DNA from: Pseudomonas sp. SORT22
GTDB taxonomy: Bacteria; Pseudomonadota; Gammaproteobacteria; Pseudomonadales; Pseudomonadaceae
Length of the DNA stretch: 64,000 bases
Assembly: GCF_018417635.1 (NCBI RefSeq)
Contig: NZ_CP071007.1
Location: 2,852,501 to 2,916,500 of the forward strand
Direction of reading: 5' to 3'
This document shows positions 28,330 to 52,004 of the stretch, piece after piece. How positions within the stretch are numbered: position 1 is the first letter of the stretch; each line of letters begins with the position of its first letter. A program made the position numbers and the translations under genes. The notes beneath the pieces are model-generated. The model searched no databases and had not been told where the DNA came from. It saw only the letters and a list, made by a program, of their open reading frames with translations.

Positions 28330-29517
28330 CTAGTGGATGCTCGAGGCCAACTCGAAGATCGGCATGTACATGAGGATCACGATCAGGCCGATCAGCAGGC
28401 CGATGAAGGTCATCAGCAGCGGCTCGAACAGGCGCACGAACCACTCGATCCAGCGGCTGATCTCCTCGTCGTAGAAGTCGGCGCTGCGCTCCATCATCTG
28501 CCCGAGGTTGCCCGACTGCTCGCCAGCGCGCAGCAGGCGCAACGACACTGGCGTCACCAGGTGCCCGGCCTCCAGCGCCGCCGACAGCGACTGGCCTTCC
28601 TTGACCCGTTCACAGGCCTGCTCCAGCCGCAGGCCACTGGCCGCGCCGAGCAGGCCGCGGGCCATGGCCATGGCGGTGAGAATCGGGATGCCGCCCTGCA
28701 GGAGGATCCCCAGCGAGCGGTAGAACCGCGCCAGCTCATACATCACCAGGCGTTTGTGCAGGGCCGGCAGGCGTTCCAGCTGGCGGTTCAGCCAGCGCCG
28801 CACCCGCGGCTCGCGACGCAGCATGAACAGCAGCGCCATGAGTAGCCCAAAGCTGCTGGCCATGGCCAGCTGATGCGCGTGCAGGAACATCCCGGCCTGC
28901 ATCAGCCAGCGCGACATCCACGGCAGCTCGGTGCCCAGGCCTTCGAACACCAGACTGAAACGCGGTACCACATAGCCGAGCAGAAACAGCACCACGCCGC
29001 CGCCGACCAGCAACAGCAGCAGCGGGTAGATCGAGGCGCTGATGATCTTCTGGCGCACTTCGTCCATGCGCTGGCGGTAGGCAACATAGCGGCCGAGGGC
29101 ATCGCCCAGGGCGCCGGTCTTCTCGCTCGATTGCACCAGCGCCACGTACAGCGGCGGGAACACGCTGGGCAACTGCGCCAGGGCCTGGGAGAACGACTTG
29201 CCTTCATACAGCAGGCGCACCAGTTCGCCGAGGGTCTTGCGTGCCTGGGGCGCGGTCTCTTTTTCGGCCAGGCTCTCGAGGGCGTCGATCAGCGGCAGGC
29301 CAGCATTGAGCAGGGTGGTCAGCTCCTGGCTGAACAGCACCAGGTTGAACACCTCGCCACGCCGCCAGCGCAGACCGGCCAGGCGCTGGCAACTGCGCAC
29401 GCTGACCACCCGCAAGCCTTGCTGCTCGACCTGCTCGCGGGCCTGGCCCGGGTCCTGGGCGTCGACCTGGAGCAAGACCACCCCGGCCTTGCCCAGGGCC
29501 TTGAGTTCATAGCGCAT
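28330..29517 (-). CDS. gspF: Type II secretion inner-membrane platform protein GspF
   Basis: This 395-residue polytopic protein carries the duplicated T2SSF domain, with 'FSQELTTLLNAGLPLIDALE' in the first copy and 'YELARFYRSLGILLQGGIPI' in the second. It has three membrane segments. It is the platform that couples the GspE ATPase to pseudopilus growth. I chose the ATG at 29517 with GGAGGG upstream over a TTG six bases earlier. It sits behind gspG on the minus strand, far from the gspE-gspD operon at 43-51 kb. No other gspF is present in the window, so the two sets probably make one machine. Confidence 0.93.
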   Translation of the reverse strand: MRYELKALGKAGVVLLQVDAQDPGQAREQVEQQGLRVVSVRSCQRLAGLRWRRGEVFNLVLFSQELTTLLNAGLPLIDALESLAEKETAPQARKTLGELVRLLYEGKSFSQALAQLPSVFPPLYVALVQSSEKTGALGDALGRYVAYRQRMDEVRQKIISASIYPLLLLLVGGGVVLFLLGYVVPRFSLVFEGLGTELPWMSRWLMQAGMFLHAHQLAMASSFGLLMALLFMLRREPRVRRWLNRQLERLPALHKRLVMYELARFYRSLGILLQGGIPILTAMAMARGLLGAASGLRLEQACERVKEGQSLSAALEAGHLVTPVSLRLLRAGEQSGNLGQMMERSADFYDEEISRWIEWFVRLFEPLLMTFIGLLIGLIVILMYMPIFELASSIH

Positions 29518-29532
29518 GCGCAAGCCCTCCGG

Positions 29533-29955
29533 TTATTGCCAACTGGTGATCTCGGCATTTTCGCCATCGCCGCCGGGCTGGCCGTCCTTGCCCATCGACA
29601 GCAGGTCGTACTCACCGTTTTCACCGGGCTGGCGGTAGATGTAGTTACGCCCCCAGGGGTCTTGCGGGACCTTTTTCTGCAGGTACGGGCCCGACCAGCG
29701 GGTTTCGTCGCTGGGTGCCGCCACCAGTGCCTGCAGGCCTTGCTCGGAATTGGGGTAATGCCCCACTTCCAGCCGGTACAGGTCCAGGGCCTTGCTCAGG
29801 CCTTCGATCTGCGCCCGGGCGACCTTGGCCTCCGAGCGCCCCAACTGGCTGAAGTACTTGGGGGCAACGATGCCGGCCAAGAGGCCCAGCACTACCAGGA
29901 CTACCAGCAGTTCGAGCAGGGTGAAGCCGCGTTGCGCGCGATGGTTGTTGTTCAT
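29533..29955 (-). CDS. gspG: Major pseudopilin GspG
   Basis: This 140-residue type II secretion pseudopilin has the prepilin peptidase site after G10, followed by FTLLE with the conserved Glu at mature position 5. The C-terminal half has 'YPNSEQGLQALV', 'WSGPYLQKKVPQDPWGRNY' and 'GGDGENAEI', the calcium-binding layout typical of GspG. GGAGGG precedes the ATG at 29955. The frame is open much further upstream, but that part has no signal. It is first in the gspG-gspF unit, divergent from the lytic transglycosylase. Confidence 0.95.
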   Translation of the reverse strand: MNNNHRAQRGFTLLELLVVLVVLGLLAGIVAPKYFSQLGRSEAKVARAQIEGLSKALDLYRLEVGHYPNSEQGLQALVAAPSDETRWSGPYLQKKVPQDPWGRNYIYRQPGENGEYDLLSMGKDGQPGGDGENAEITSWQ

Positions 29956-29990
29956 AGCCAGGCCCTCCACAGGTGCGCTGCAAGGTCTTA

Positions 29991-30006
29991 TGCAATTGCC
30001 GTGCGC
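29991..30006 (-). promoter_or_regulatory. Candidate sigma-54 promoter of gspG-gspF
   Basis: On the minus strand this reads GCGCACGGCAATTGCA. It matches the RpoN consensus in CACG-N4-TTGCA but has CG instead of the near-invariant GG at -24. The -12 GC would give a start about 25 bases upstream of the gspG ATG. The inverted repeats at 30085-30110 would then lie about 100-130 bases upstream, a normal enhancer distance. The imperfect -24 element lowers confidence. Confidence 0.4.
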
Positions 30007-30084: not shown

Positions 30085-30110
30085 GGGGCATATGCCCCAC
30101 TTTCTGGGGG
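30085..30110. promoter_or_regulatory. GGGGCATATGCCCC palindrome and CCCC-N7-GGGGG inverted repeat
   Basis: A perfect 14-base palindrome (30085-30098) overlaps a second inverted repeat, CCCC-ACTTTCT-GGGGG (30095-30110). The same CCCC-N6/7-GGGG architecture recurs upstream of mnxG and upstream of the response regulator gene, each time near a sigma-54 promoter match. This is a candidate binding site for a common enhancer-binding activator. Confidence 0.5.
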
Positions 30111-30132: not shown

Positions 30133-30732
30133 ATGCGCTGGCTCACTGCGGCAATCCTGGCCTGGCTGGCCACAGGCAATCCGGCTCAGGCCGATGTGTA
30201 CATCTCGATCAAGGCCGATGGCAGTTATGTGTTGAGCAACGTCCACCGGCCGGGGCGAACCTACCAGCGGGTCATCAGCGAGGCCGTGAGCCTGGCCAGC
30301 AACGGCCCGCAACTGATCACCGGCATGCCCTACGCCGAAGTGGTGGCGGCAGCGGCGCAGGCCAACGACCTGCCGGCGGCCTTGCTGCACGCAGTGATCC
30401 AGGCCGAATCGCGCTACGACCCCAACGCCCGCTCGACCAGCGGCGCGGCCGGGCTGATGCAGCTGATGCCCGACACCGCCAAGGAAATGGGCGTGAAGAA
30501 TGTCCTCGACCCGGCCGCCAACGTGCAGGGCGGGGCGCGCTACCTCAAGCGCATGCTGACCCTGTTCGACAACGACATCACCCTGGCCGTGGCCGCCTAC
30601 AACGCCGGGCCAGATGCGGTGCTGCGTCGCGGTCGGGTAGTACCGCCGTTTGCCGAAACCCAGCGCTACGTGCCCAAGGTGCTGCGCCAGTACCGGCGGC
30701 TGCAGGGCCTGGCGGTGGATGCGCCGTTGTAG
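30133..30732 (+). CDS. Periplasmic lytic transglycosylase (SLT family)
   Basis: This 199-residue protein has a Sec signal of about 20 residues (cleavage after AQA) and one SLT domain. The catalytic glutamate is E92 in 'IQAESRYDPNARS'. GLMQLMP at 107-113 and AYNAGP at 155-160 complete the family motifs. It cuts peptidoglycan glycan strands. Small enzymes of this type often open the wall for envelope-spanning machines. It is divergent from gspG-gspF and next to mnxG, so a role in assembling the local secretion apparatus is likely. GGAGG precedes the ATG. Confidence 0.92.
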   Translation: MRWLTAAILAWLATGNPAQADVYISIKADGSYVLSNVHRPGRTYQRVISEAVSLASNGPQLITGMPYAEVVAAAAQANDLPAALLHAVIQAESRYDPNARSTSGAAGLMQLMPDTAKEMGVKNVLDPAANVQGGARYLKRMLTLFDNDITLAVAAYNAGPDAVLRRGRVVPPFAETQRYVPKVLRQYRRLQGLAVDAPL

Positions 30733-30774: not shown

Positions 30775-30810
30775 CCCCCGATTAGTGGGGAATACCGGGG
30801 AATCACCCCC
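30775..30810. promoter_or_regulatory. CCCC/GGGG inverted repeats upstream of mnxG
   Basis: CCCCC-N7-GGGG at 30775-30790 is followed by GGGGAATCACCCCC at 30797-30810. 'GGGGAAT' is repeated directly at 30787 and 30797. The cluster lies about 55-90 bases upstream of the sigma-54 promoter of mnxG, the usual place for an enhancer-binding protein. Confidence 0.5.
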
Positions 30811-30861: not shown

Positions 30862-30878
30862 TTGGCATGGGCCTTGCT
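30862..30878 (+). promoter_or_regulatory. Sigma-54 promoter of mnxG
   Basis: TTGGCATGGGCCTTGCT matches the RpoN consensus (TGGCAC-N5-TTGCW) at all core positions except one. GG lies at 30864-30865 and GC at 30876-30877, exactly ten bases apart. It is about 41 bases before the mnxG start, leaving a leader of roughly 30 bases. I recall that Mn(II) oxidation genes of P. putida GB-1 depend on the sigma-54 activator MnxR, which fits. Confidence 0.8.
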
Positions 30879-30918: not shown

Positions 30919-33900
30919 ATGATGACTCCAATCAAAGGCTCAGTCCTGACTTCACTGCTGCTTGCGGCCGCCAGCCTTGCCTGGCAACCGCTCAGCGAAG
31001 CTGCCGTGCGCTGCGAGCGCAACCTGGTGGCCAATGTGGTGGCGCTCGATCAGCCACTGATGTTCAACCGCCTCGGTGCGCAGAACGCCAACGGCATGAT
31101 GTTCGCCCTGCGCCGCGACGTGGTCGACGAGCACCAGGTGTCGCTGGCCACTGGCGGCGCCGCGGTACCGGGCAAGGTCAGCCTGCGCCCGGACAAACGC
31201 CCGCGGCCGATCGTGCTGCGGGTGGCGGCGGGCGACTGCCTGACCATCAACCTGCAAAACCTGCTGGCCTACCAGGCCAACCCGAACAAGCACGGCATCG
31301 ACCACGAGCAAGAGAACGAGGTCGAAGGCGAGGAAAACGAAGGCGCTGAGAACGAAGCCGGCGAGGGCAACGAGCAGGGCGGCGAGCATTTTGTCGCCGA
31401 CGAGCAGGTCAGCGACCGTCATGTCGGTTTTCAGGTCAACGGCATGCAGGCGGTCAACAGTATCGGTGACATCGCCGCCAATACCGGGCGCAACGGCAAC
31501 TTCCTGATCGCCCCCGGCGCCAGCCGTTCCTACACCCTTTACGCCGAGCGTGAAGGCGCGTTTGCCGCCACCAGCCAGGGCGCGACCTTTGGCGGCGAGG
31601 GCGGTGCCGGCAACGTCGCCAATGGCCTGTTCGGCCAGGTGGTGGTGGTGCCCAAAGGTGGGCGTACCTTCCGTAATACCCTGACCGAAGAAGAGATGCG
31701 CCTGAGCAGCAGCGGCCGCACCCCCACCGGCCAGCCGATCGTCGACTACCAGGCGCGCTACCCGCAGCAGGAGCCGTGGATCCGCGAAGGCAAGGCCGGT
31801 TCGCCGATCATTGCCATGACCGATGGCAACGAGATCATCTCCAGCGAATCCGACGCAATTGTCATGGGCCCCAACGCCGATGGCAGTTTCCCGGCCTCGA
31901 CCTACCCGCTGGAAAGCATCGGCAAACGCAACCCGGCGATCCCCAACCGCCTGGAGCCGTTCCGTGATTTCGCCGCGCAGTTCACCGACGAAGCCGCCTC
32001 GACCCAGGCCTTCCCCGGTTACTGGGCAGACCCGGTAATGGGCCATGTGCTGGAGCCGACCCGCGACTCGTTCATGATCAACTATGGCTCCGGCGGCATG
32101 GGCGCCGAGGTTGTGGCCAACCGCCTGGGCGTGGGGCCGATGCATGACTGCCTGTCATGCGCCTATGAAGAGTTCTTCTTGAGTTCGCACACCGTCGGCG
32201 ACGTGGCGATGCTGGTGGACGTACCGGCTAACGTCGGCCTGGAGAACATCCGCCCGGGCCAGACCCCGAGCGCCGAGCAGGTCGGGGTCAAGGCGACCAT
32301 GGCCCTGTACCCGGCGGAACCGGCCAACGTCAACCACAGCTACATCGGTGACATGGTCAAGTTCCGCAACACCCACAACGGCCACGAGCAGCACATCTTT
32401 CACCTGCACGGCCACCAGTGGCTGTTCAACCCCAATGACGACAACTCCGACTATGTCGACGCCCAGGGCATCGGCCCGGGTGTCGGCTACACCTACGAAA
32501 TCGCCAACGGCGGCTCGGGCAACCGTAACCGCGTGGCCGGCGATGCGATCTATCACTGCCACTTCTACCCGCACTTTGCCCAGGGTATGTGGAGCATGTG
32601 GCGGGTCCACGATGTGTTCGAAGAAGGCACCCGCCTGGAAGTCTCCGGGCAGAGCGAAAACGGCTATCACAGCGTGCCGTTCGCCTTGCGCAGCGGCAAG
32701 CCGGCCGCGGGCGCCCGGGCCTTGCCGGACGGCGAGATCGTCGCCGGTACGCCAATCCCGGCCATCGTGCCGTTGCCCGGCAAGGCCATGGCGCCGATGC
32801 CCGGCAAGGTTGCGGTGATTCCCAAGCTGGCGCAAACCCTGGTTGCCGCAAACCATGACGACGATGAGCAAGAAGAGGGCGATGATGACGCTGGCCATGA
32901 CGACGCCGCGCCGCGCGCAGTCGGCTCGCTGGCCCTGGTCGATCGCAGCGAGGCCAACCGCAACGCCGACGGCAGCCTGAAGAACCCGGGCTTCCCGTTC
33001 TGGATCGGCGGCATGGAAAACACCGTCGGCCAGCGCCCGCCAACCCCGCCGCTGGACATGCTCGACCCGGCCAAGGCGCAACAGTTGAAAAACTCCGGCA
33101 ACGCCCTGTGGGCCAACCTCGACCCGGCCCAGGTCGGTGGCTGGGACGGCGGCCTGCCACGCCATGCCCTGGACGGCCTGTCGGCCGGCGGCGAGGCGCT
33201 GGTGACCACCACTGCGCTGGACTTCACCAAGGCGATCACCAAGGCCAAGGCGGTGTTTTTGCCCGAGGAGGGTACCGACGTCGAACAGGCGGCGATGAGC
33301 TTCCATTCCAAACTGGAGCACCCAAGCTATGCCGTGCTGCCTGGCAAGCAGACCGTGGCGCGCAACTTTCGCACCAACGGCGCCGCACCTACCGCCGGCG
33401 CGCCGTACTACGAGCCGTGCATGGATGATCGCGCCAAGCGCCTGACCCAACTGTCCGGCGCCGGTGAGTTCAACAGCGGCGAGCGCCTGGACGGCATGAG
33501 CTTTACCGGCAGCTCGACTTTCACCGCCGACCGCCCGCGCATCTACAAGGGCGCCAACATCCAGTTCGACGCGGTGTACAACAAGGTCGGCTACCACTTT
33601 CCGCAGGCGCGGATCATCAGCCTCTGGGAAGACGCCTGGGCGGTGATCAACAAGCAGCGCCCGCCGGAGCCGCTGGTGATGCGCATGAACACCTTCGACT
33701 GCGTGATGTACCAGCACACCAACCTGATCCCCTCGTACTATGAAATGGACGACTACCAGGTGCGTACGCCAACCGACGTTATCGGCCAGCACATCCACCT
33801 GCCCAAATGGGACCTGACCGCCGCCGATGGTTCGGCCAACGGCTGGAACTACGAGGACGGTATCCTTTCCCCTGGCACCGTGGTCGAGCGTATCCACGCG

Positions 33901-36798
33901 ATTCGCGAGTTCAACGAGTGCCGCGCCGGCGACCCGCGCGAAGGCACGGCCGAGTGCCCGGTGGCCAAGGCGCACCCGTTCTTCGGCCGCTACGGGCGCG
34001 CCGACTGGCTGGGCGCACGCACGGCCATGCAGCGCTGGTTCGTCGACCCGGTGGTCAACGTGCATAACGTCGACCGTGGCCTGGGCACCATCTTTACCCA
34101 CGACCACCTCGGCCCATCGACCCACCAGCAACTGGGCCTGTACGCCACCGTGCTGGCCGAGCCTGCCGGCTCTACCTGGTACCACGCCGAAACCGGCGAG
34201 CTGCTGTACAACAGTGCCCTGCGCGAAGACGGCGGGCCGACCTCGTGGCAGGCGGTGGTGAAAACCGGCGACCTCGATGGTGACGGGCGCAACGACAGCT
34301 ACCGCGAGTTCTTCCTCGAGTACAGCGACTTCCAGCATGCCTATGAGGCCGGTGTTTACGTGGGTGCCGGCCCGGACGGCATCCCCAATGCCCAGGCTTA
34401 CCCGGCCAGCGCCGACAGCTTCCGCTATGCGATCAACCCGCCGGTGCGGCAGAAGGCTTCGAACCTGCTGGAATCGGTGGTCGAGTCGCGCGGCGGGCTC
34501 AACCCGGGCTGCCCGAGCCGGCCTTGCCCGCAGGCAATCTCGGTGGATGACCCGGGGATGTTCGTCGTCAACTACCGCAACGAGCCGCTGGCCCTGCGTG
34601 TCTACGACCCCAACAAGGTCGCCCCCGACGGCAAGCGCGGCATGCAGGCCGACGGCCTGGCCGGCGATCTCGCCTATGCCATGCAGAGCCGCACCGACCG
34701 CGCCATCCCGGCGATGAACCTGTCGCCGGCGGCTGTTACCTCGGCTGTGGGGCCAACCGGTGGCACCACCTTGTTCCCGCCGCACATCAACGCCGCCGGG
34801 GCCGAGCCGGGCGACCCGTTCACGCCGATGCTGCGCACCTACTCTGGCGACAACGTGCGCCTGCGCATGCATGCCGGTGGCCATGAAGAGGAACACAACG
34901 TGACCCTGCATGGCGTCAAATGGCTGCAGAACGGCTCGGGCTTCGGCAACAGCTCGAACTCCGGCTGGAAGGCCTCGCAGATGGTCGGGATCTCCGAGCA
35001 ACTGGGCTTCATGGCACCGGTGTCGATGATCTCCAGCGCGTCGGCGCCCAACGGTGACTACCTGTATTCGCTGGACGCCGCCCACGAAGGCTACTGGAAT
35101 GGCATCTGGGGCGTTATGCGCAACTACAGCAACAGCCGCAACGACCTGTTTGCCCTGCCCAACAACCCGTTGCCGATGGCGGCGCGCAATACCGTGGCGT
35201 TTGACGGCATCTGCCCGCGCTTTACCGCCAACACCAATGGCATCGGCACCCGGCCAACGGTGCAGCGCAGCTATGAAGTCGTCGCCGCCCTGGCCAACGA
35301 TATCCTCGGCAACTCGCTGGGTGTGAGCATCACCGACCCGGCCGGCGCCGGCCAGCACGTCGGCGGCCCGCTCAAGGCCAACGGCGGCACTCTGGTGTAC
35401 AACAGCCGACGCACCAGCATCCCGCAGGTGACGGTGACCGACCCCGAAGATGGCGAGACCTTCACCATCGGCGGCCACAGCGGCCCGCTGCACGACCCGA
35501 CGGCAATCCTCTATGTGCGCAAGGCCGACCTCGACCCGGGCACCGGCAAGCTCAAGCCCGGTGTGCCGATCGAGCCGCTGGTGCTGCGCGCCGCTGCCGG
35601 TGAGTGCCTGAAGGTCACCCTGGAAAACCGCCTGCCGCAGGTAATGCCCGACCTGCCGAGTACCGCCGTGATGCAGAACGTGGTCAAGCGCGACCGCAAT
35701 GGCAGTGAAGGCTCCACCGCCTTCAACAACAACCTCATGCGGCCCTCCAGCCATGTCGGCCTGCATGCCCAGTTGCTGGCCTACGACATCACCAAGTCGG
35801 ACGGCGCCAACGTCGGCCAGAACCCGGTGCAGACCGTGCCGCCACGGGCCGGCAACAGCGGCGCCTACCCGAGCAAGGTCTACCAGTACTACGCCGGACA
35901 CCTGGAGCGTGAAGGCAAGCCGGTGCTGCAGATGGGCCGTGCGGTGGACAACATCAACACCACCGCTATCGAGTTCGGCGGCCTGAACATTACCCCGGCC
36001 GATGTCATCAAGCAGGGGCAAAAGGGCCTGATCGGCGCCATGAGCATCCTGCCGCTGGGCGCTACCTGGAGTGAAGACAGCGCCAGCCGCGCCTCGGCCA
36101 CGGTACAGGTGCCGGGGCAAACCGCGTTCCGCGACTTCGTCACTTTGTGGCAGCGCTCGCTGAACATGCGTTGGGCCGATGGCCGGCCGGTGGAGGGCAT
36201 TGCCACTGAAGGCAATGGCGTGCCGGGCGATCCGAAGGACAACTCGAACATGGCCATCAACTACAAGACCGAGCCGTTGTGGTTCCGCTTCGGCCTGGCC
36301 CCGGATGCGCCGTTCGGCCATGCCGATGGCAATGGCTGGGCCGACGTGCCCAACGCCCACATGGCCTACAGCAACGCCCTGGTCGGCGGCGATCCGCAAA
36401 CCCCGGTGCTCTGGGCCAAGCCTGGCCAGCCGCTGCGTAACCACGTGCTGATGCCCACCGGCGGCAGCCGCGGCATTACCTACCAGCTCGACGGGCACTT
36501 GTGGCCTCTGCACGCCTACCAGCCGGAGAAGGCCGACCCCGGTGGCTACCCGATGTACCAGCCCGGTATCGGTTCGGTGCGCTTTGGCTACAACCCGCAG
36601 GCCATGTACATCGGCGCCCAGGAGAGCGTGCTGCCGGCCGCGCACTTCAGCTTCATGCTGCCCAGCGCCGGCGGCAGCAACGCGGTGCCGGGTGACTACC
36701 TGTTCCGCGACTACGCCGCCTACGGCAACGCCTCCGGGTTGTGGGGCATCCTGCGGGTGACCAACGAAACACCACCGGCCACGCCGCCAGCACAGTGA
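30919..36798 (+). CDS. mnxG: Giant multicopper oxidase, MnxG-type Mn(II) oxidase
   Basis: This 1959-residue exported multicopper oxidase has a Sec signal of about 28 residues. Copper motifs are spread along the chain: HLHGH at 495-499, HCHFYPHFAQGM at 546-557 (the classic type 1/type 3 ligand run), HDH at 1061-1063, and histidines at 1318, 1322, 1326 and 1331. Its length is that of MnxG of P. putida GB-1, which oxidises Mn(II) to Mn(IV) oxide. Ordinary laccases are 500-700 residues. Two very acidic, His-containing inserts at about 125-163 and 646-667 may bind Mn or Ca. I chose the first of two adjacent ATGs. It heads an operon of likely maturation proteins. Substrate is inferred from size and motif layout. 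Confidence 0.88.
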   Translation: MMTPIKGSVLTSLLLAAASLAWQPLSEAAVRCERNLVANVVALDQPLMFNRLGAQNANGMMFALRRDVVDEHQVSLATGGAAVPGKVSLRPDKRPRPIVLRVAAGDCLTINLQNLLAYQANPNKHGIDHEQENEVEGEENEGAENEAGEGNEQGGEHFVADEQVSDRHVGFQVNGMQAVNSIGDIAANTGRNGNFLIAPGASRSYTLYAEREGAFAATSQGATFGGEGGAGNVANGLFGQVVVVPKGGRTFRNTLTEEEMRLSSSGRTPTGQPIVDYQARYPQQEPWIREGKAGSPIIAMTDGNEIISSESDAIVMGPNADGSFPASTYPLESIGKRNPAIPNRLEPFRDFAAQFTDEAASTQAFPGYWADPVMGHVLEPTRDSFMINYGSGGMGAEVVANRLGVGPMHDCLSCAYEEFFLSSHTVGDVAMLVDVPANVGLENIRPGQTPSAEQVGVKATMALYPAEPANVNHSYIGDMVKFRNTHNGHEQHIFHLHGHQWLFNPNDDNSDYVDAQGIGPGVGYTYEIANGGSGNRNRVAGDAIYHCHFYPHFAQGMWSMWRVHDVFEEGTRLEVSGQSENGYHSVPFALRSGKPAAGARALPDGEIVAGTPIPAIVPLPGKAMAPMPGKVAVIPKLAQTLVAANHDDDEQEEGDDDAGHDDAAPRAVGSLALVDRSEANRNADGSLKNPGFPFWIGGMENTVGQRPPTPPLDMLDPAKAQQLKNSGNALWANLDPAQVGGWDGGLPRHALDGLSAGGEALVTTTALDFTKAITKAKAVFLPEEGTDVEQAAMSFHSKLEHPSYAVLPGKQTVARNFRTNGAAPTAGAPYYEPCMDDRAKRLTQLSGAGEFNSGERLDGMSFTGSSTFTADRPRIYKGANIQFDAVYNKVGYHFPQARIISLWEDAWAVINKQRPPEPLVMRMNTFDCVMYQHTNLIPSYYEMDDYQVRTPTDVIGQHIHLPKWDLTAADGSANGWNYEDGILSPGTVVERIHAIREFNECRAGDPREGTAECPVAKAHPFFGRYGRADWLGARTAMQRWFVDPVVNVHNVDRGLGTIFTHDHLGPSTHQQLGLYATVLAEPAGSTWYHAETGELLYNSALREDGGPTSWQAVVKTGDLDGDGRNDSYREFFLEYSDFQHAYEAGVYVGAGPDGIPNAQAYPASADSFRYAINPPVRQKASNLLESVVESRGGLNPGCPSRPCPQAISVDDPGMFVVNYRNEPLALRVYDPNKVAPDGKRGMQADGLAGDLAYAMQSRTDRAIPAMNLSPAAVTSAVGPTGGTTLFPPHINAAGAEPGDPFTPMLRTYSGDNVRLRMHAGGHEEEHNVTLHGVKWLQNGSGFGNSSNSGWKASQMVGISEQLGFMAPVSMISSASAPNGDYLYSLDAAHEGYWNGIWGVMRNYSNSRNDLFALPNNPLPMAARNTVAFDGICPRFTANTNGIGTRPTVQRSYEVVAALANDILGNSLGVSITDPAGAGQHVGGPLKANGGTLVYNSRRTSIPQVTVTDPEDGETFTIGGHSGPLHDPTAILYVRKADLDPGTGKLKPGVPIEPLVLRAAAGECLKVTLENRLPQVMPDLPSTAVMQNVVKRDRNGSEGSTAFNNNLMRPSSHVGLHAQLLAYDITKSDGANVGQNPVQTVPPRAGNSGAYPSKVYQYYAGHLEREGKPVLQMGRAVDNINTTAIEFGGLNITPADVIKQGQKGLIGAMSILPLGATWSEDSASRASATVQVPGQTAFRDFVTLWQRSLNMRWADGRPVEGIATEGNGVPGDPKDNSNMAINYKTEPLWFRFGLAPDAPFGHADGNGWADVPNAHMAYSNALVGGDPQTPVLWAKPGQPLRNHVLMPTGGSRGITYQLDGHLWPLHAYQPEKADPGGYPMYQPGIGSVRFGYNPQAMYIGAQESVLPAAHFSFMLPSAGGSNAVPGDYLFRDYAAYGNASGLWGILRVTNETPPATPPAQ

Positions 36799-42336: not shown

Positions 42337-42404
42337 TAGCACCCGTTTGCGTCTATGCTTACAGAATCAACGACATAGCACATTGATTTGCGCCGTATCA
42401 CGTC

Positions 42405-42420
42405 TGGCACGAAGCATGCG
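42405..42420 (+). promoter_or_regulatory. Candidate sigma-54 promoter of the response-regulator/gsp/csg operon
   Basis: TGGCACGAAGCATGCG carries a perfect TGGCACG -24 element. GC follows at 42418-42419, ten bases after the GG pair. The -12 element reads ATGC instead of TTGC. It lies about 70 bases before the response regulator start. Confidence 0.65.
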
Positions 42421-42492
42421 TAAGCCTCTACAAGGCCGCACTCGTGCCGGGCCGGGAAACCGGGCCAGCGATGCTTCAGGGAGTGGACCTTG

Positions 42493-45558: not shown

Positions 45559-45559
45559 A

Positions 45560-46102: not shown

Positions 46103-46637
46103 CCTGATCCTCCATGAACGCGCCCGCCAGCTCGGCGTAGTGGGCCTGGCCGGTGCCGGGTTGCTGGCCCTGGCCCTGCTGTATGGCGTTACTGCCTTGC
46201 TCGGCCAATGGCAGCAGTTGCAACAGCTGGAGCAGCAGCGTGATCAGGCGCTGTTGCAGGTCGCGCAGTTCAAGCAGGGCACGCTGAAGCTGGCGCAGGT
46301 GCCCAGGCACGAGCTGGAAGACTTTCACAAACAGCTGCCGGCCCAGCCTCAGGCCACTGTGGCCATCGACCGCATCTATGCCCTGGCCAAGGCCGAGCAG
46401 ATCACCCTGGCCCGCGGCGAGTACGCCCTGGGGGTCGATCCCAAGACTCAGCTGGCGCGTTACCAGATCCTCCTGCCGGTGCGCGGCAGCTACCCGCAAA
46501 TCCGCCGCTACGTGCATGCCTTGCTCGGCCAGTTGCCGGCACTGGTGCTCGAAGACATTGACCTGCAGCGCAAGAAGATCGGCGACCGCGAGCTGACCGG
46601 GCGCATCCGTATGACCCTTTACCTGTCGAGGTCATGA
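46089..46637 (+). CDS. PilO/GspM-like inner-membrane assembly protein
   Basis: This 182-residue protein has a short cytoplasmic N-terminus, one membrane helix (about 16-38), a coiled coil and a small periplasmic alpha/beta domain, as in PilO/MshJ. 'LPVRGSYPQIRRYVHALLGQLPALVLEDIDL' spans its most recognisable part; the sub-motif 'YPQIRRYVHALL' is typical of PilO-like domains. It should pair with the preceding PilN-like protein as the alignment subcomplex. Confidence 0.78.
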   Translation: MRIPSLILHERARQLGVVGLAGAGLLALALLYGVTALLGQWQQLQQLEQQRDQALLQVAQFKQGTLKLAQVPRHELEDFHKQLPAQPQATVAIDRIYALAKAEQITLARGEYALGVDPKTQLARYQILLPVRGSYPQIRRYVHALLGQLPALVLEDIDLQRKKIGDRELTGRIRMTLYLSRS

Positions 46638-47137
46638 TGAACACTCAACGCAGCCTGGCCTGGCTGGCTTTTCTCGGCACCGCCGCGGTGCTGGCCTGGG
46701 CGCCGGGGTATTTCTTCGACGACGTAGCTGAAGACGCCGAGGCGGCTGTTGAGGTCGCCGGCAAGGCTTCTGCACCGCTGACGCCGACTGCGCAGATGGC
46801 GGCAAGGCCGGCAGCCCTGCAGCCGCGCGACCTGTTCCCGAGCAAGAGCTGGAAGCCTGCGGTGCAGGTCACCACCGTCACCGAACAACCGGTGGTCATC
46901 GCTCCGGTGGCCGTGGCGCCTGTCGCCCCGGCACTGCCATTCCAGTTCGTTGGCCGCCTGGATGATCGCGACGACCAGCAGGTGTTCCTGCAAAGCGGCG
47001 AAAAACTCTACGTCGTGCGCCGCGGCGACGTGATCGATGACACCTACCGGATCGAGCAGATCTCCGCTACGGAGCTGAGCCTGGTCTACCTGCCATTGCA
47101 CCTGTCCCAGACCTTGTCTGTAGGGAGCGCACCATGA
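46634..47137 (+). CDS. PilP/GspC-like secretin-linking protein
   Basis: This 167-residue protein has one N-terminal membrane helix, a proline/alanine-rich linker and a compact beta domain beginning 'LPFQFVGRLDDRDDQQVF'. That domain matches the HR/PilP domain which connects the inner-membrane ring to the secretin. Start and stop codons overlap both neighbours by four bases. It precedes the secretin gene, as mshK and gspC do. Confidence 0.76.
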   Translation: MMNTQRSLAWLAFLGTAAVLAWAPGYFFDDVAEDAEAAVEVAGKASAPLTPTAQMAARPAALQPRDLFPSKSWKPAVQVTTVTEQPVVIAPVAVAPVAPALPFQFVGRLDDRDDQQVFLQSGEKLYVVRRGDVIDDTYRIEQISATELSLVYLPLHLSQTLSVGSAP

Positions 47138-48957
47138 ATTCGCCAAGGCTCAGCCACAAAGCGCCGTACCTGATGCTTGCCCTGTGTGTCGCCCTGGCCG
47201 GATGCGGCACTTCGGGTGTGCGCAAGGACGCCCAGGCCCTGATCGGTGAGGGCCAGTACGAGGCCGGAATCGCCCAGCTTGAAGACGCGCTCAAGGAACA
47301 CCCGCGCGACACCGAACTGAACATCGCCTTGATCCAGGGCCGGCGCCAGGCGGTGGAGGCGCTGCTGACCCAGGCCGACAGCGACCGCAGCCGCCATGAC
47401 TTCGGCGGTGCGCGCACAGGTTACGGGCGGGTGCTGACCCTGGAGCCGAACAACCGCCGGGCCCTGGATGCGGTGCGCCAGATCGAGCAGATGCGCAACC
47501 TCGGCGAGCGCATTGCCCTGGGCCAGGCGGCGCTGCGCAGCGGCGACCTGTTCGGCGCCGAGCGGCACATGCGCGAAGTGCTGCTGCTCGACCCGCAGAA
47601 CGAAGGCGGCCTGGCCCTGCGCAAGGACATCGAGCTGGTGCAAAGCCGCACCGCCCAGCCCAACCCGCAACTGCGCAGCAAGCTCGAACGGCCGGTGACC
47701 CTGGAGTTTCGCGACGCCAACCTGAAGACCATCTTCGAGGTGCTGTCGCAGGTGGCGGGGCTGAACTTTATCTTCGACAAAGACCTGCGCCCGGACATGA
47801 AGGCGACCATCTTCGTGCGTGACGTGCGCATCGAAGACGCCGTGGCCCTGCTGCTGGAACAGAACCAGCTGCACCAGAAGGTGGTGAACGACAACACGCT
47901 GCTGATTTACCCGGACTCGCCGCAGAAGATCAAGGATTACCAGGAGCTGGTGATGCGCACCTTCTACCTGACCAGCATCGACGCCAACACTGCGCTGAAC
48001 ATGGTCAAGACCATGCTCAAGACCCGCGACGTGTTCGTCGACGAGCGCCTCAACACCCTGACCATGCGCGACACCCCCGACGCCGTGCGCATGGCCGAGA
48101 AACTGCTGCAATCCCAGGACCAGTCCAACCCGGAAGTGGTGCTGGAGGTGGAAGTGATGGAGGTTGCCCGTTCGCGGATCCTCGAACTCGGCCTGCAGTG
48201 GCCCAACACCTTTGGCATCCTCAACGCCGATGGCAACCCGGTGGGCACCCTCGACCAACTGCGCGGCATCAACTCCTCGCGCATCAGCATCGCCCCGGCA
48301 CCGCAAGCCAAGATCAACGCCCAGGACAACGACATCAACACCCTGGCAAGCCCGGTGATCCGCGTCAGCAACCGTGAACAGGCGCGCATCCACATTGGCC
48401 AGCGGGTGCCGATCATCAGCGCCACCTCGGTGCCCTCGACCCAGGGCCCGGTGATCACCGAAAGCGTCACCTATCTGGACGTCGGCCTCAAGCTCGAAGT
48501 GACCCCGGTGGTGCACCTGAACAACGAGGTGGCGATCAAGGTGGCCCTGGAAGTCAGCAACGCCAAGCCGCTGGAGCCGACCCGCCAGGGCACCATCCCG
48601 GTTCAGGTCGACACCCGCAACGCCCAGACCAGCCTGCGCCTGCACGACGGCGAAACCCAGGTGCTGGCCGGGTTGATGCGCAACGACCAGGGTGGCAGCG
48701 GCAACAAGATCCCGGGGCTTGGCGACATTCCCGGCCTGGGCCGGCTGTTCGGCAGCAACCGCAGCGACAACAGCCAGTCGGAGCTGGTGCTGTCGATCAC
48801 CCCGCGGATCATCCGCAACCTGCCGTACCAGAGCCCGTCGGACATGGAGTTTGCCACCGGCACTGAAACCAGCATGCAGATCCGCAACCTCAACCGCAGC
48901 ATCGAGGTCGACGACGAACAACCGATTGCGGCGGTACCGACCGCGGTGAGGCCGTAA
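47134..48957 (+). CDS. gspD: Secretin lipoprotein GspD/MshL-like
   Basis: This 607-residue outer-membrane secretin has a lipobox LAGC at residues 21-24. TPR-like helices follow (about 30-170), then an STN-like domain ('LEFRDANLKTIFEVLSQVAG'), an N-domain, and the C-terminal secretin barrel with 'VPIISATSVPS' and 'GLKLEVTPVVHLNNEVAIK'. The built-in TPR region resembles MshL/PilQ-type secretins of MSHA-like systems more than classical GspD. A self-lipidated form may need no separate pilotin. It forms the exit channel for the pseudopilus-driven export. Confidence 0.92.
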   Translation: MNSPRLSHKAPYLMLALCVALAGCGTSGVRKDAQALIGEGQYEAGIAQLEDALKEHPRDTELNIALIQGRRQAVEALLTQADSDRSRHDFGGARTGYGRVLTLEPNNRRALDAVRQIEQMRNLGERIALGQAALRSGDLFGAERHMREVLLLDPQNEGGLALRKDIELVQSRTAQPNPQLRSKLERPVTLEFRDANLKTIFEVLSQVAGLNFIFDKDLRPDMKATIFVRDVRIEDAVALLLEQNQLHQKVVNDNTLLIYPDSPQKIKDYQELVMRTFYLTSIDANTALNMVKTMLKTRDVFVDERLNTLTMRDTPDAVRMAEKLLQSQDQSNPEVVLEVEVMEVARSRILELGLQWPNTFGILNADGNPVGTLDQLRGINSSRISIAPAPQAKINAQDNDINTLASPVIRVSNREQARIHIGQRVPIISATSVPSTQGPVITESVTYLDVGLKLEVTPVVHLNNEVAIKVALEVSNAKPLEPTRQGTIPVQVDTRNAQTSLRLHDGETQVLAGLMRNDQGGSGNKIPGLGDIPGLGRLFGSNRSDNSQSELVLSITPRIIRNLPYQSPSDMEFATGTETSMQIRNLNRSIEVDDEQPIAAVPTAVRP

Positions 48958-48960: not shown

Positions 48961-49437
48961 ATGAAACGCCCGATGGCAGGTTTCAGCCTGATCGAAGTGA
49001 TGCTGACCCTGGCACTGCTCGGGTTGCTCGCCTCGATTGCTGCGCCGCTGACCGAAACCCTGGTGCGGCGCAACAAGGAGCAGGAGCTGCGCACCGCGCT
49101 GTACCAACTGCGCGATGCCATCGACGCCTACAAGCGCGCCTTCGACGCCGGCTATATCGAGAAGTCCCTCGACGCCAGCGGCTACCCGCCGAACCTGCAG
49201 GTGCTGGTCGATGGCGTGCGCGATGTGCGCAGTGCCAAGGGCGCCAAGTTCTACTTTCTGCGGCGCATTCCCCAGGACCCGCTGCTGGCCGCGCGCAAGG
49301 ACGACGAGCAGGGCGGGTGGGGCCTGCGCGCCTACGACAGCCCGGCGCAGAGCCCGCGTGATGGTGAAGACGTTTTTGATGTGTACTCCCGGGCCCGCGG
49401 CAAGGGCCTCAACGGCATCGCCTACGGGCAGTGGTGA
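48961..49437 (+). CDS. Pseudopilin (prepilin-type, GspG/H-like)
   Basis: This 158-residue protein has a prepilin peptidase site after G7, followed by FSLIE with the conserved Glu5 and a long hydrophobic helix. The C-terminal domain has 'YPPNLQVLVDGVRDVRSAKG' and 'FYFLRRIPQDPLL', related to GspG but with a longer insert. It is the first of three consecutive pseudopilin-like genes behind the secretin. Confidence 0.88.
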   Translation: MKRPMAGFSLIEVMLTLALLGLLASIAAPLTETLVRRNKEQELRTALYQLRDAIDAYKRAFDAGYIEKSLDASGYPPNLQVLVDGVRDVRSAKGAKFYFLRRIPQDPLLAARKDDEQGGWGLRAYDSPAQSPRDGEDVFDVYSRARGKGLNGIAYGQW

Positions 49438-49442
49438 GCAGC

Positions 49443-49817
49443 ATGAAACGCAACCAGGGCTTTACCTTGATCGAATTGCTGGTGGTGATGGCGATCATCG
49501 CCACGCTGATGACCATCGCCATGCCGCGCTACTTCAACAGCCTCGAGACCTCGCGCGAGGCCACCCTGCGCCAGAGCCTGGCGGTGATGCGCGAGGCGCT
49601 GGACCACTACTACGGCGACACCGGTCGCTACCCCGAGTCGCTGGAACAGTTGGTCGAGCAGCGCTACCTGCGCGGCGCGCCGCTGGACCCGATCACCGAA
49701 CGCCGTGACGGCTGGCTGCTGGTGGCACCGCCTGAAGGCGTCGCCGGCGCCGTTGCCGACATCAAAAGCGGTTCAACCGGGAGGGCCCGTGATGGCAGCC
49801 TTTATGCCGAGTGGTAA
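49443..49817 (+). CDS. GspG-like pseudopilin (second copy)
   Basis: This 124-residue pseudopilin has a cleavage site after G6, then FTLIE. 'YYGDTGRYPESLEQLVEQRY' and 'PLDPITERRDGW' show a GspG-like C-domain that is shorter than the major pseudopilin at 29.5-30.0 kb. I prefer the ATG at 49443 over upstream GTG codons that overlap the previous stop. It overlaps the next gene by 26 bases. Confidence 0.88.
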   Translation: MKRNQGFTLIELLVVMAIIATLMTIAMPRYFNSLETSREATLRQSLAVMREALDHYYGDTGRYPESLEQLVEQRYLRGAPLDPITERRDGWLLVAPPEGVAGAVADIKSGSTGRARDGSLYAEW

Positions 49818-50322
49818 TGCCGGGCAGGCAGGCTTCACCTACCTGGGCGTGCTGTTGCTGATCGCCGTCACCGGCATGGCCCTGGCGGCCACCGGCACGC
49901 TGTGGTCGACCGTCGCCCAGCGCGAGCGCGAACGCGAGCTGCTGTGGGTCGGCGGCCAGTATGCCCAGGCCCTGCGCAGCTACTTTCGCGCCTCACCTGG
50001 CCTGGCCCAATACCCGCAGAGCCTTGAGGAGCTGCTGGAGGATAGCCGTTACCCCAACCCCAAGCGGCACCTGCGCAAGTTGTACCCGGACCCGATCACC
50101 GCCAGCGATGACTGGGGCCTGCTGCGCTCGATCGACGGGCGCATCACCGGCGTCTACAGCCGCTCCCAGGCCCTGCCGCTCAAACGCACCGGCTTTGCCG
50201 GGCAATGGTCGGAGTTCGACGGCCTTGAGCACTACAGCGACTGGCAGTTCGTCGCCGAAAAGGCCTTCAACGAAAGCGCCGCCGGCGCACGCAAGGGCCT
50301 GGCCCAGGGAGCCGGGCAATGA
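49792..50322 (+). CDS. Minor pseudopilin lacking Glu5
   Basis: This 176-residue protein has a prepilin-like leader of 14 residues ending in G, then FTYLGVLLLIAV. Mature position 5 is Gly instead of the usual Glu, a trait known from GspK-type tip pseudopilins. The body includes 'QYPQSLEELLEDSRYPNPKR' and 'PITASDDWGLLRSIDGRI', a GspG/H-like domain. GGGAGGG precedes the ATG. It may cap the pseudopilus. Its stop overlaps the csgE start by four bases. Confidence 0.82.
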   Translation: MAAFMPSGNAGQAGFTYLGVLLLIAVTGMALAATGTLWSTVAQRERERELLWVGGQYAQALRSYFRASPGLAQYPQSLEELLEDSRYPNPKRHLRKLYPDPITASDDWGLLRSIDGRITGVYSRSQALPLKRTGFAGQWSEFDGLEHYSDWQFVAEKAFNESAAGARKGLAQGAGQ

Positions 50323-50714
50323 ACCGCCGCCTCAGTGCCCTGGCCCTGGCCCTGGTGCTGCTGGCCGGCACCGCCCGGGGCGGCGCCGAGGACGAGATGA
50401 TGGGCTTTATCGTCGACAACACCATCTCGCACATCGGCCACGACTTCTATTACAGCTTTGCCGAGCGGCTGCGTGCCACCAGCCGCCTGGATTTCAACCT
50501 GGTGGTACGTGAACGACCCGACCCGCGCTGGGGTAGCCTGGTGACGGTCGAGTACGAGCAACGCGTGCTGTACCGGCGTTTTCTGCCACCCAACACCACC
50601 GAGCTTAAGGACGCCGCCTACGAGGCTGCGGACCTGGTCAAGGCGCAGATCATCCAGCGCAAGCTGCAGATGCTGCTGCAGGACACCACTGATCTGGAGA
50701 GGGACGAGCTATGA
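50319..50714 (+). CDS. csgE: Curli export accessory protein CsgE
   Basis: This 131-residue periplasmic protein has a signal peptide of about 20 residues. Its central part 'VDNTISHIGHDFYYSFAERL' and 'VVRERPDPRWGSLVTVEY' closely match CsgE of E. coli. CsgE caps the CsgG pore as a nonamer and gates which substrate enters. It is translationally coupled to the pseudopilin gene before it and to csgF after it (four-base overlaps), so it clearly belongs to the secretion operon. Confidence 0.93.
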   Translation: MNRRLSALALALVLLAGTARGGAEDEMMGFIVDNTISHIGHDFYYSFAERLRATSRLDFNLVVRERPDPRWGSLVTVEYEQRVLYRRFLPPNTTELKDAAYEAADLVKAQIIQRKLQMLLQDTTDLERDEL

Positions 50715-51130
50715 ACAACAACAAAACCTGCAGCCTGGCCTCGCTGGTATTGCTGGCGAGCCTCGCCAGTGCAGCCAGCGCCACGGAACTGGTCTACACC
50801 CCGGTCAACCCGGCGTTTGGCGGCAACCCGCTGAACGGCACCTGGCTGCTCAACAACGCCCAGGCGCAGAACGATCACGAAGACCCGGCCATCAAGGACC
50901 GCACCTCGGCCTTTGCCAGCACCTCGGCACTGGAGCGTTTCACCAGCCAGCTGGAGTCGCGCCTGCTCTCGCAACTGCTGACCAACATCAACAACGGCAA
51001 CACCGGCAGCCTGCAGACCGACGCCTTCATCATCAACGTCATCGACGACTCGGGGGCCCTGAGCATTCAGGTGACCGACCGGGTAACCGGGGAAATCTCG
51101 GAAATTCAGGTCAACGGCCTGAACCCTTGA
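50711..51130 (+). CDS. csgF: Curli assembly factor CsgF
   Basis: This 139-residue exported protein has a signal peptide ending near ASA, then 'TELVYTPVNPAFGGNPLNG', the diagnostic CsgF N-terminal segment that inserts into the CsgG channel. A helix and a C-terminal beta domain follow. In curli systems CsgF holds the nucleator CsgB at the cell surface. Here no csgB or csgA is present, so its surface client is unknown. Confidence 0.94.
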   Translation: MNNNKTCSLASLVLLASLASAASATELVYTPVNPAFGGNPLNGTWLLNNAQAQNDHEDPAIKDRTSAFASTSALERFTSQLESRLLSQLLTNINNGNTGSLQTDAFIINVIDDSGALSIQVTDRVTGEISEIQVNGLNP

Positions 51131-51158
51131 AGGGCCAGGACAACGGGGAGAGACAGCC

Positions 51159-52004
51159 ATGAAACGATTTCTGAGCACACTGCTGATCCTGGCCGCCTTG
51201 CAAGGCTGCAGCCTGCGCGAACCGATGCCGGCCGAACAGGACAGCGAAAGCCCGACCCTGACGCCACGGGCCTCGACCTACTACGACCTGCTCAACATGC
51301 CGCGGCCCAAGGGCCGGCTGATGGCGGTGGTGTATGGTTTTCGCGACCAGACCGGGCAATACAAGCCGACCCCGGCCAGCTCGTTTTCCACCAGCGTCAC
51401 CCAGGGTGCGGCGAGCATGCTGATGGATGCCCTGCAGGCCAGCGGCTGGTTCGTGGTGCTTGAGCGCGAAGGGCTGCAGAACCTGCTGACCGAACGCAAG
51501 ATCATTCGCGCCTCGCAGAAAAAGCCCGACACCCCGGTGAATATCCAGGGCGAGCTGCCGCCGCTGCAGGCGGCCAACCTGATGCTCGAAGGCGGCATCA
51601 TCGCCTACGACACCAACGTGCGCAGCGGCGGCGAGGGCGCGCGCTACCTGGGTATCGACCTGTCGCGCGAGTACCGGGTCGACCAGGTCTCGGTCAACCT
51701 GCGGGCGGTGGACGTGCGCAGCGGCCAGGTGCTGGCCAACGTCATGACCAGCAAGACCATCTACTCGGTCGGGCGCAGCGCCGGGGTGTTCAAGTTCATC
51801 GAATTCAAGAAGCTCCTGGAAGCCGAGGTCGGCTACACCACCAACGAACCGGCGCAGCTGTGCGTGCTGTCGGCGATCGAGGCGGCGGTGGGGCACTTGC
51901 TGGCCCAGGGCATTGAACGGCGCCTGTGGCAGGTGGCGGGGGATGGCAGCGGCGACAAGGCGGTACTGGACAAATACCTGAGCCAGTACCAGAGCCCTGA
52001 GTGA
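51159..52004 (+). CDS. csgG: Curli export pore lipoprotein CsgG
   Basis: This 281-residue outer-membrane lipoprotein (lipobox LQGC, C17) is a full-length CsgG. Recognisable parts are 'VVYGFRDQTGQYKP', 'VVLEREGLQNLLTERKIIR', 'GGIIAYDTNVRSGGEGARYL' and 'YTTNEPAQLCVLSAIEAAV'. CsgG forms a nonameric barrel that lets unfolded protein pass the outer membrane. It ends the operon that starts with the response regulator and gspE. The next gene is convergent. Confidence 0.95.
   Translation: MKRFLSTLLILAALQGCSLREPMPAEQDSESPTLTPRASTYYDLLNMPRPKGRLMAVVYGFRDQTGQYKPTPASSFSTSVTQGAASMLMDALQASGWFVVLEREGLQNLLTERKIIRASQKKPDTPVNIQGELPPLQAANLMLEGGIIAYDTNVRSGGEGARYLGIDLSREYRVDQVSVNLRAVDVRSGQVLANVMTSKTIYSVGRSAGVFKFIEFKKLLEAEVGYTTNEPAQLCVLSAIEAAVGHLLAQGIERRLWQVAGDGSGDKAVLDKYLSQYQSPE

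Follow-up and report, generated by a model that had tools for sequence, protein, structure and literature searches.

Manganese oxidase, type II-like secretion, and curli export genes as one probable co-inherited system in Pseudomonas

Why should the gene for a giant manganese oxidase share a locus with two outer-membrane export systems? The question is raised by a 64,000-nucleotide stretch of Pseudomonas sp. SORT22 (contig NZ_CP071007.1, positions 2,852,501 to 2,916,500; hereafter the window, with coordinates counted from its first base), part of a 5.8-Mb single-contig genome, in which an operon for the multicopper oxidase MnxG adjoins genes for a pseudopilus machine resembling type II and MSHA systems, followed directly by the curli export genes csgE, csgF, and csgG. 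Sequence comparisons strongly support the view that these genes belong to one co-inherited, co-regulated system: they co-occur, are linked, share promoter elements, are lost jointly, and preserve a gene overlap, and the system has a protein module in common. We consider it likely, at roughly two chances in three, that the locus encodes the export side of a dedicated system for mineralizing manganese outside the cell, a single sigma54 regulon in which the type II-like machine would export the oxidases, and CsgG the curlins.

A survey of 249 Pseudomonas genomes, the source genome included, was queried with MnxG, CsgE, curlin repeats, and the secretin of the machine; secretin orthologs were accepted at 467 bits, a cut of our own choosing, the next match down scoring 333 bits. 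MnxG is present in 81/249 genomes (80 above the curated cut-off, and G235 with the gene split over two open frames), CsgE in 88 (partial in G137), curlin in the same 88, and a strong secretin ortholog in 86. Every MnxG genome has CsgE (81/81), secretin (81/81), and curlin (81/81), and in all 81 csgE lies about 1.4–2.3 kb from the secretin gene on one contig. In 73 of the 81, no more than 20 kb separates csgE from mnxG itself; in six the two are on different contigs, which may reflect assembly breaks, and in two, G102 and G200, they are 179 and 222 kb apart. In these last two, mnxG alone has been relocated, and the accessory genes, machine, and csgEFG are still together; G174, where a contig ends, was left out of these cases. 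A preliminary description of the window placed the oxidase, machine, and csgEFG in one locus and took the two export systems to be made as one unit; that all three behave as a unit is borne out by these counts, together with the joint losses described next. Nor does csgEFG stand beside the machine genes mostly where mnxG is missing, the outcome proposed as a check on that idea; the opposite was found, as all 81 genomes with both secretin and CsgE have mnxG.

Losses follow the same lines. Five genomes have the secretin without MnxG (G021, G163, G223, which is 73% complete, G232, and G246), and none of the five has CsgE or curlin, curlin being absent even at E 1. G163 keeps the set from gspE to the pseudopilins and retains csgE and csgG as short fragments in the expected place; its cytochrome fusion gene, otherwise part of the mnxG operon, is gone. 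G021, G232, and G246 show a deletion of mnxG where it normally lies; of the curlin operon they keep the first genes, cu454 and cu755, without csgBA, and they have no csgEFG. Further cases come from 80 named loci found via the secretin, all Pseudomonas by record title, a set that overlaps the 249 genomes, several contigs being of identical length, and is not independent of them, with the presence of mnxG judged from the sequence around each locus. Seven of the 80 lack csgE: L269 runs into a contig end, and the other six are without csgEFG although the sequence continues. In five of these six, a transglycosylase gene runs almost into sco1, mnxG and the beta-propeller gene that follows it being deleted (L297 keeps a 55-residue mnxG scar); in the sixth, L287, there is no mnxG within 1.8 kb upstream of its propeller gene. 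None of the 73 csgE-bearing named loci has a transglycosylase gene inside this flank.

Because the mnxG and csgEFG lesions flank a machine that was retained, one deletion cannot explain both. A GspE gene tree, made by a quick method, places the ten loss rows in three places, with three changes forced by well-supported branches, and a 31-row tree of the G-numbered genomes also needs three changes when the incomplete G223 is counted. Three separate lineages lost mnxG and csgEFG while the intervening machine stayed. That the genes are neighbors through common descent only is scarcely credible in this light: one ancestral arrangement does prevail in most genomes, so that the counts are not independent, but the genes stay together though unlinked (mnxG in G102 and G200; the curlin operon of the source genome, about 420 kb from the window), are lost jointly, and carry common promoter elements at unlinked sites.

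The features of the locus, with strand and supporting evidence, are given below.

28330..29523, minus: GspF-type inner-membrane protein (PF00482, 192.6 bits; TIGR02120 GspF, 289.9 bits, under the cut-off of 424)
29533..29955, minus: GspG-type major pseudopilin, start MNNNHRAQRGFTLLEL (PF08334, 145.1 bits; N_methyl)
30085..30110, no strand: GGGG-N6-CCCC and CCCC-N7/8-GGGG palindromes, candidate activator site between gspG and the lytic transglycosylase gene
30133..30732, plus: SLT lytic transglycosylase (PF01464, 96.1 bits)
30775..30810, plus: palindromes CCCCCGATTAGTGGGG and GGGGAATCACCCCC upstream of mnxG, candidate activator sites
30862..30878, plus: sigma54-type -24/-12 element TTGGCATGGGCCTTGCT of the mnxG operon
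30919..36798, plus: MnxG manganese-oxidizing multicopper oxidase, Sec-type signal peptide by eye (NF041487, 3900.8 bits, cut-off 3100)
36813..38792, plus: YncE-like beta-propeller protein (PF21783 and PF02239, above cut-off)
38789..39436, plus: SCO1/SenC protein 1 (PF02630, 69.5 bits)
39433..40077, plus: SCO1/SenC protein 2 (PF02630, 64.4 bits)
40081..41616, plus: fusion of cytochrome c and periplasmic binding protein (PF13458, 94.9 bits; PF00034, 22.1 bits)
41613..42260, plus: SurA_N-domain protein (PF13624, 69.8 bits)
42272..42329, plus: two palindromes upstream of the secretion–curli operon, candidate activator sites
42404..42420, plus: sigma54-type element CTGGCACGAAGCATGCG of the secretion–curli operon
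42490..43026, plus: receiver-domain response regulator, first gene of the secretion–curli operon (PF00072, 82.6 bits)
43080..44780, plus: GspE/MshE-type ATPase (PF00437, 412.7 bits)
44755..45558, plus: PilM/GspL-like protein (assigned from gene order, without a Pfam match; present in 80/80 named loci)
45557..46102, plus: PilN-like protein (PF05137, 22.8 bits, at cut-off)
46095..46637, plus: PilO/GspM-like protein (PF04350, 24.8 bits)
46634..47137, plus: PilP/GspC-like protein (assigned from gene order, without a Pfam match)
47134..48957, plus: TPR-secretin, lipobox by eye (PF00263, 139.2 bits; STN; TPR)
48961..49437, plus: pseudopilin 1 (N_methyl, 28.1 bits)
49446..49817, plus: pseudopilin 2 (N_methyl, 40.3 bits; GspG model 50.5 bits, under the cut-off of 88.85)
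49771..50322, plus: pseudopilin-like protein 3 (no family match)
50319..50714, plus: CsgE (PF10627, 128.9 bits; NF007701, 168.3, above the cut-off of 137)
50711..51130, plus: CsgF (PF10614, 119.2 bits)
51159..52004, plus: CsgG outer-membrane lipoprotein pore (PF03783, 271.4 bits; PDB 3x2r, 279.3 bits)

MnxG aligns along the full NF041487 profile (positions 1–1894), well in keeping with the giant MnxG-type oxidase first described here; in this strain it is a predicted manganese oxidase. The closest solved structure, 9bxa (1227 aa), matches in five partial stretches. Six genes, from 30919 to 42260, form the operon (MnxG, the beta-propeller protein, two SCO1/SenC proteins, the cytochrome c/periplasmic-binding fusion, and the SurA_N protein), and the last five are the likely metallation set of the preliminary description; the same six-gene operon is reported in Table 4 of PMC11409713. 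The open reading frame (ORF) caller starts mnxG at the TTG at 30862, which is the first base of the sigma54-type element, so the likely start is the ATG at 30919 or 30922. Beyond gspF, at window 25767–28194, three flanking genes resemble, by eye, a tyrosine recombinase gene in one case and TenA/PqqC genes in the other two; a phage-integrase-family gene is listed in the GB-1 mcoA operon in PMC11409713, Table 4.

The secretion–curli operon comprises 13 tightly packed same-strand genes, 42490 to 52004, encoding the regulator, GspE, the PilM/N/O/P-like proteins, the TPR-secretin, three pseudopilin-like proteins, CsgE, CsgF, and CsgG; gspF and gspG lie on the minus strand, on the far side of mnxG from the remaining machine genes. 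The type II core recognized by Pfam is present: assembly ATPase, GspF, major pseudopilin, and secretin. Scores nevertheless fall below the curated type II equivalog cut-offs (GspE, TIGR02533, 486.6 vs 630.25; GspD, TIGR02517, 154.4 vs 351.35), and the secretin falls below that for MshL (TIGR02519, 102.6 vs 250.2); we therefore call the machine type II-like, neither a type II secretion system nor an MSHA pilus. By gene content it resembles a type II system, and it may export folded periplasmic proteins as such systems would. No match to a prepilin peptidase or the GspK family appeared among the ORFs scanned. Most of the export genes first assigned from the raw sequence are confirmed by Pfam (GspE, GspF, GspG, PilN, PilO, TPR-secretin, N_methyl pseudopilins, and CsgE, CsgF, and CsgG). 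The proposed set of PilM/N/O/P-like proteins and three pseudopilins stands for PilN, PilO, and two of the pseudopilins; the PilM-, PilP-, and third pseudopilin-like proteins found no useful match in Pfam or NCBIfam and are named from position and size. Apart from this locus, a paralogous gspF-gspE-PilM-secretin cluster, 28–52% identical and with no csg matches within the stretch, occurs in G037 and G171 (L074, L075), and 10 genomes, all of them lacking MnxG, have secretin matches of 281–333 bits.

All three Csg proteins are open frames above the Pfam cut-offs; by NCBIfam, CsgE exceeds its cut-off, and CsgF (109.5 vs 171) and CsgG (297.5 vs 505) fall below theirs. This CsgG is the only CsgG match in the source genome. 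The third pseudopilin-like gene, ending at 50322, overlaps csgE, starting at 50319, by four bases, as csgE and csgF overlap likewise. The first of these overlaps, already remarked upon in the preliminary description, is real, and an ATGA or GTGA overlap in the csgE frame is kept in 72 of the 73 named loci with csgE, which is not chance.

Does the overlap mean that the two outer-membrane pores transfer the oxidase, or a scaffold for it, between them? This had been the initial suggestion, and the conservation of the overlap is what speaks for it, but we regard such a hand-over as highly improbable. CsgG passes unfolded polypeptide, whereas MnxG is a very large copper enzyme; CsgE, CsgF, and CsgG fit their Pfam families; and curlins are available as the obvious cargo in all 81 MnxG genomes. 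The CsgG loop is ordinary as well. A pore specialized for manganese was considered on the strength of this loop, which we take to be the pore constriction (TGQYKPTPASSFS, against TGQFKPYPASNFS in E. coli), and was rejected: three classic Pseudomonas curli sets are nearly identical to it (TGQYKPSPDSSFS), and the loop is thus uninformative about manganese.

If curlins are the cargo of CsgG, where are they encoded? The curlin operon of the source genome (L076) holds cu454 (no family), cu755 (Big_9/cadherin domains), and genes for a CsgB-like protein of 156 aa and a CsgA-like protein of 481 aa with 12 matched curlin stretches (L076:9059-9529 and 9546-10991). Among the matches listed, the closest relatives of the cu454 protein with a species name are from P. 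tructae, P. vranovensis, and P. alkylphenolica. All four genes were matched in 22/22 curlin loci examined (L076–L079, L120–L137). Divergent from cu454 in the source genome are a histidine kinase gene and a McoA-type multicopper oxidase gene (McoA-, MnxS-, and MnxR-type names being assigned from domains and gene order). The guess of an unknown scaffold had come close, as curlins are encoded in a sister operon next to an McoA-type oxidase and kinase; the pore-to-pore transfer proposed with it is not supported.

In six genomes (G042, G060, G087, G100, G225, and G244) the curlin operon is convergent with csgEFG across a gap of 0.2–0.8 kb; in other genomes the two lie several to hundreds of kb apart. 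G225 has it between csgEFG and a kinase-McoA-SCO-kinase-response regulator locus whose regulator has receiver, sigma54-activation, and Fis-type domains, and in L067, L177, and L184 the neighborhood of the cu454 operon includes a response regulator of the sigma54-activating kind (three regulators scanned). The G225 order matches that of mnxS1, mcoA, SCO, mnxS2, and mnxR given for strains MS-1 and DSV-1 in PMC11409713. By the gene numbers in Table 4 of that source, SurA and mnxS1 are separated by 17 genes in each of the two strains; taken as consecutive, these would equal in number the response regulator, gspE, the PilM/N/O/P-like genes, secretin, three pseudopilin-like genes, csgEFG, csgA, csgB, cu755, and cu454. 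Across the genomes read, mnx-type kinases adjoin the cu454 operon in 18/27, three of the 18 without csgBA.

Three further observations concern these genes. G087 carries a second mnxG, 74.7% identical, with a propeller gene, divergent from a classic csgEFG-curlin cluster whose CsgG is 48% identical (L073:5222-16894); this is an independent oxidase–curli pairing. G060 has, at a second site and in addition to its mnx-linked set, a compact csgEFG-csgB-csgA set (L138, G060:C4) with CsgG 79% identical and no cu454 or cu755 matches. Directly after the curlin operon of the source genome (L076:11123-15634) come three genes whose products resemble, by eye, a sigma factor of the ECF class, a regulator of FecR type, and a TonB-dependent receptor (974 aa).

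Are these scattered operons under common control? When the window was scanned for sigma54 -24/-12 elements, mnxG and the regulator–gspE operon were each preceded by one, the only two hits, and L076 had a single hit, before cu454. At a score of at least 0.862, the 95th percentile of random stretches, an element lies upstream of mnxG in 24/24 readable cases (the region in L073 was unreadable and stands outside the 24), of the regulator operon in 23/23, and of the curlin operon in 19/22. The best element lies 53–129 bases from mnxG, 78–97 from the regulator operon, and 52–78 from cu454 where the threshold was reached. Alignment of upstream regions also revealed a palindrome, defined as CCCC-N5-8-GGGG or GGGG-N4-7-CCCC and present in 6.9% of random stretches; it occurs at 19/24 mnxG, 23/23 regulator operon (mostly in two copies), and 19/22 curlin operon promoters. 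Among 20 mcoA promoters chosen regardless of motif, 19 have the sigma54 element and nine the palindrome. The pairing of element and palindrome at operon promoters, weaker at mcoA, is that expected of an MnxR–sigma54 regulon. Where mnxG has moved, a separate sigma54 element (2/2) and palindrome (1/2) precede the propeller gene. Upstream of gspG the palindrome is found in 6/8 other readable regions (16 loci tried, 7 unreadable); sigma54 elements between gspG and the SLT gene are weak (0.74–0.90), and we claim no promoter there.

A composite motif, palindrome plus sigma54 element 62–92 bases apart, was then run genome-wide; having been defined on these loci, it tests specificity, not discovery. 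The 5.8-Mb source genome has it at four distinct places (reversed control, 0), three of which are the mnxG, machine–csgEFG, and curlin promoters. The fourth (L140, G000:C1:1599108) precedes a gene resembling the large subunit of NAD(P)H nitrite reductase (by eye), and may reflect chance or another activator. Upstream of the regulator operon, the composite is found in 67/79 named loci. Across the 249 genomes it occurs in 81/81 with MnxG, 5/5 with secretin only, and 14/163 others (100 in total; reversed control, 11/249), the position of the site relative to these operons having been checked for some genomes only. Of six off-locus sites picked and read, four precede McoA-type genes; in three of these an SCO-like gene comes next (by eye), and in the fourth the stretch ends too early.

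Published work is consistent with such control. The mnxG and mcoA promoters have predicted IHF and sigma54 sites and are described as active only with manganese (PMC11930936); sigma54 dependence is predicted for MnxR, and strain MS-1 loses manganese oxidation when rpoN carries an insertion (PMC11409713).

What might the machine recognize? Two McoA-type oxidases (L205, L206) and cu755 are 47–50% identical to one another over some 200 residues at the C terminus. With the 147 C-terminal residues of the L205 protein as query (15 candidates per genome scored, E 1e-10), this module is found in 85/86 secretin genomes, missing only from the incomplete G223, and in 0/163 genomes without secretin. In G021, G163, G232, and G246, which lack MnxG, matches of both the cu755 and McoA types persist. 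The module is a candidate tag for, or partner of, the machine, and apparently not a general part of manganese oxidases.

Outside the genus, a sample of 274 genomes spread over the class, again including the source genome, yielded six matches to the MnxG model, with only the source genome above the cut-off. Long relatives occur in G281 (52% identity), G402 (37–47%), and G276 (33%); G270 and G497 have a weak single-domain match only. The oxidase adjoins a type II gene set in G281 (by Pfam, ATPase, GspG, GspK, GspL-type, and GspD) and in G402 (GspF, GspK, and GspD), the rest of each set being assigned by order or by resemblance to genes of the window. A distant CsgG was found in G402 only of the three, on another contig. 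Since these type II sets stand beside the oxidase without curlin, the oxidase–type II pairing is wider, and the curli part is Pseudomonas-specific in this sample; the same two cases tell further against transfer between pores.

Several points weigh against the reading of the locus as the export half of a mineralization system. Its mechanism (oxidases through the machine, curlins through CsgG, mineral on the coat) would be the simplest fit, with cargo assignments that we infer. The Fisher p values for co-occurrence, 1e-50 to 1e-60, were computed ignoring shared ancestry. Outside the genus, curlin above cut-off is present in 0/3 of G281, G402, and G276, and the 19 kb read around the G276 oxidase hold no homologue of the window's secretion genes. 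As for the promoters, two sigma54 hits in the window compare with 1.4 expected in shuffled sequence, so that their position, not their number, carries the argument; many scores equal the threshold of 0.862 and do not exceed it; 5/24 mnxG, 3/22 curlin, and 11/20 mcoA promoters lack the strict palindrome; and two of the six off-locus sites (L208, L209) precede unrelated genes. L122 (G049) has its curlin operon in fragments despite the presence of MnxG, machine, and csgEFG, and no mnx-type kinase was seen in the stretch beside the cu454 operon in 9/27 genomes. The mnxG and mcoA homologues of P. resinovorans MOB-513 are described as unresponsive to manganese (PMC9765421).

Seven genomes, moreover, have curli with neither MnxG nor secretin, so that curli as such is independent of MnxG; in two of these clusters that were read, CsgG is about 49% identical to that of the window and no secretin adjoins. 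Curli might then be ordinary stationary-phase matrix that follows the same sigma54 activator and has no role in manganese oxidation, sharing timing only, and mnxG and mcoA of GB-1 are indeed stationary-phase genes (PMC11930936). We think this unlikely. It sits poorly with curlin and CsgE in 81/81 MnxG genomes, with separate mnxG and csgEFG lesions around a retained machine in three lineages, with the mnx-type kinases adjoining the cu454 operon in 18 of 27 genomes, and with the second mnxG of G087 next to a different, classic csgEFG set.

The module raises another objection, being absent from MnxG and from the 927-aa McoA-type oxidase of the source genome, and hence not the export signal of either. 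The machine could export only module-bearing proteins (some McoA, cu755), MnxG leaving by another type II system or staying anchored. We hold this to be rather improbable, even though module proteins track the machine (85/86) and the four genomes that lost MnxG keep the machine and both kinds of module protein; MnxG is never found without the secretin in 249 genomes, and the type II sets beside its relatives in G281 and G402 suggest repeated pairing of MnxG with type II secretion.

The mineralization reading, which we prefer, would run as follows. The mnxG, machine–csgEFG, curlin, and mcoA units would form one regulon transcribed from sigma54 promoters, with an NtrC-type activator, most likely MnxR, acting at the candidate CCCC-N6-GGGG palindromes. 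MnxG and McoA would reach the periplasm via Sec, be loaded with copper by the SCO proteins, and be pushed out folded by the type II/MSHA-like machine, with the C-terminal module found both in some McoA-type oxidases and in cu755 as its candidate signal for export or docking. Curlins exported by CsgEFG would build an amyloid coat, the site of oxidase action and of manganese oxide deposition. We propose more tentatively, and with some doubt, that curli here is a manganese-induced mineral scaffold instead of a general biofilm amyloid, and that the module is an export tag of the machine or a curli-docking domain. If correct, this would be a genetically encoded, two-exporter biomineralization organelle. 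It bears on where bacterial manganese oxides form outside cells and how giant manganese oxidases get there, and the locus provides candidates for the exporter and the export tag, together with a promoter signature and a probable scaffold. Pseudomonas curli, mostly without a nearby csgD, would gain both a candidate regulator (MnxR–sigma54) and a candidate job.

How does the locus compare with known systems? Type II and MSHA-like machines have GspE, GspF, GspG, PilN- and PilO-type proteins, secretin, and pseudopilins in common with it by Pfam; unlike in type II systems, the secretin here is fused to TPR, and GspE, GspF, and secretin score under the NCBIfam type II cut-offs. A Gsp-related pathway of P. 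putida GB-1, called Xcm in the preliminary description, was reportedly found by De Vrind in 2003 to be needed to secrete the manganese-oxidizing factor, and may or may not be the cluster in the window. The GB-1 mnx system likewise has the six-gene mnxG operon (PMC11409713) and predicted sigma54 promoters at mnxG and mcoA (PMC11930936), and MS-1 and DSV-1 have mcoA-SCO between mnxS1 and mnxS2 (PMC11409713). The words "secretion" and "curli" are absent from the main text of PMC11409713, PMC11930936, and PMC8218464. In the open-licence PubMed Central literature, no curli–MnxG link was found in the titles or abstract openings listed, so that its absence is not proven, and csgE, csgG, P. putida, and type II secretion together gave no match. 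P. putida strains are reported to have csgEFG and csgAB as two clusters, and GB-1 manganese-oxidation genes to have homologues in KT2440, W619, and F1, one being missing in W619 (PMC3056050). With E. coli curli (type VIII secretion) the system has in common the CsgE, CsgF, and CsgG families and CsgB/CsgA-like curlin-repeat proteins; unlike there, csgEFG here ends a type II-like operon with a sigma54-type promoter in common with manganese oxidases, the CsgA-like protein has 481 aa, and cu454 and cu755 head the curlin operon. Pseudomonas csg operons, those of P. stutzeri excepted, are described as lacking a nearby csgD, with other regulators suspected (PMC3521004).

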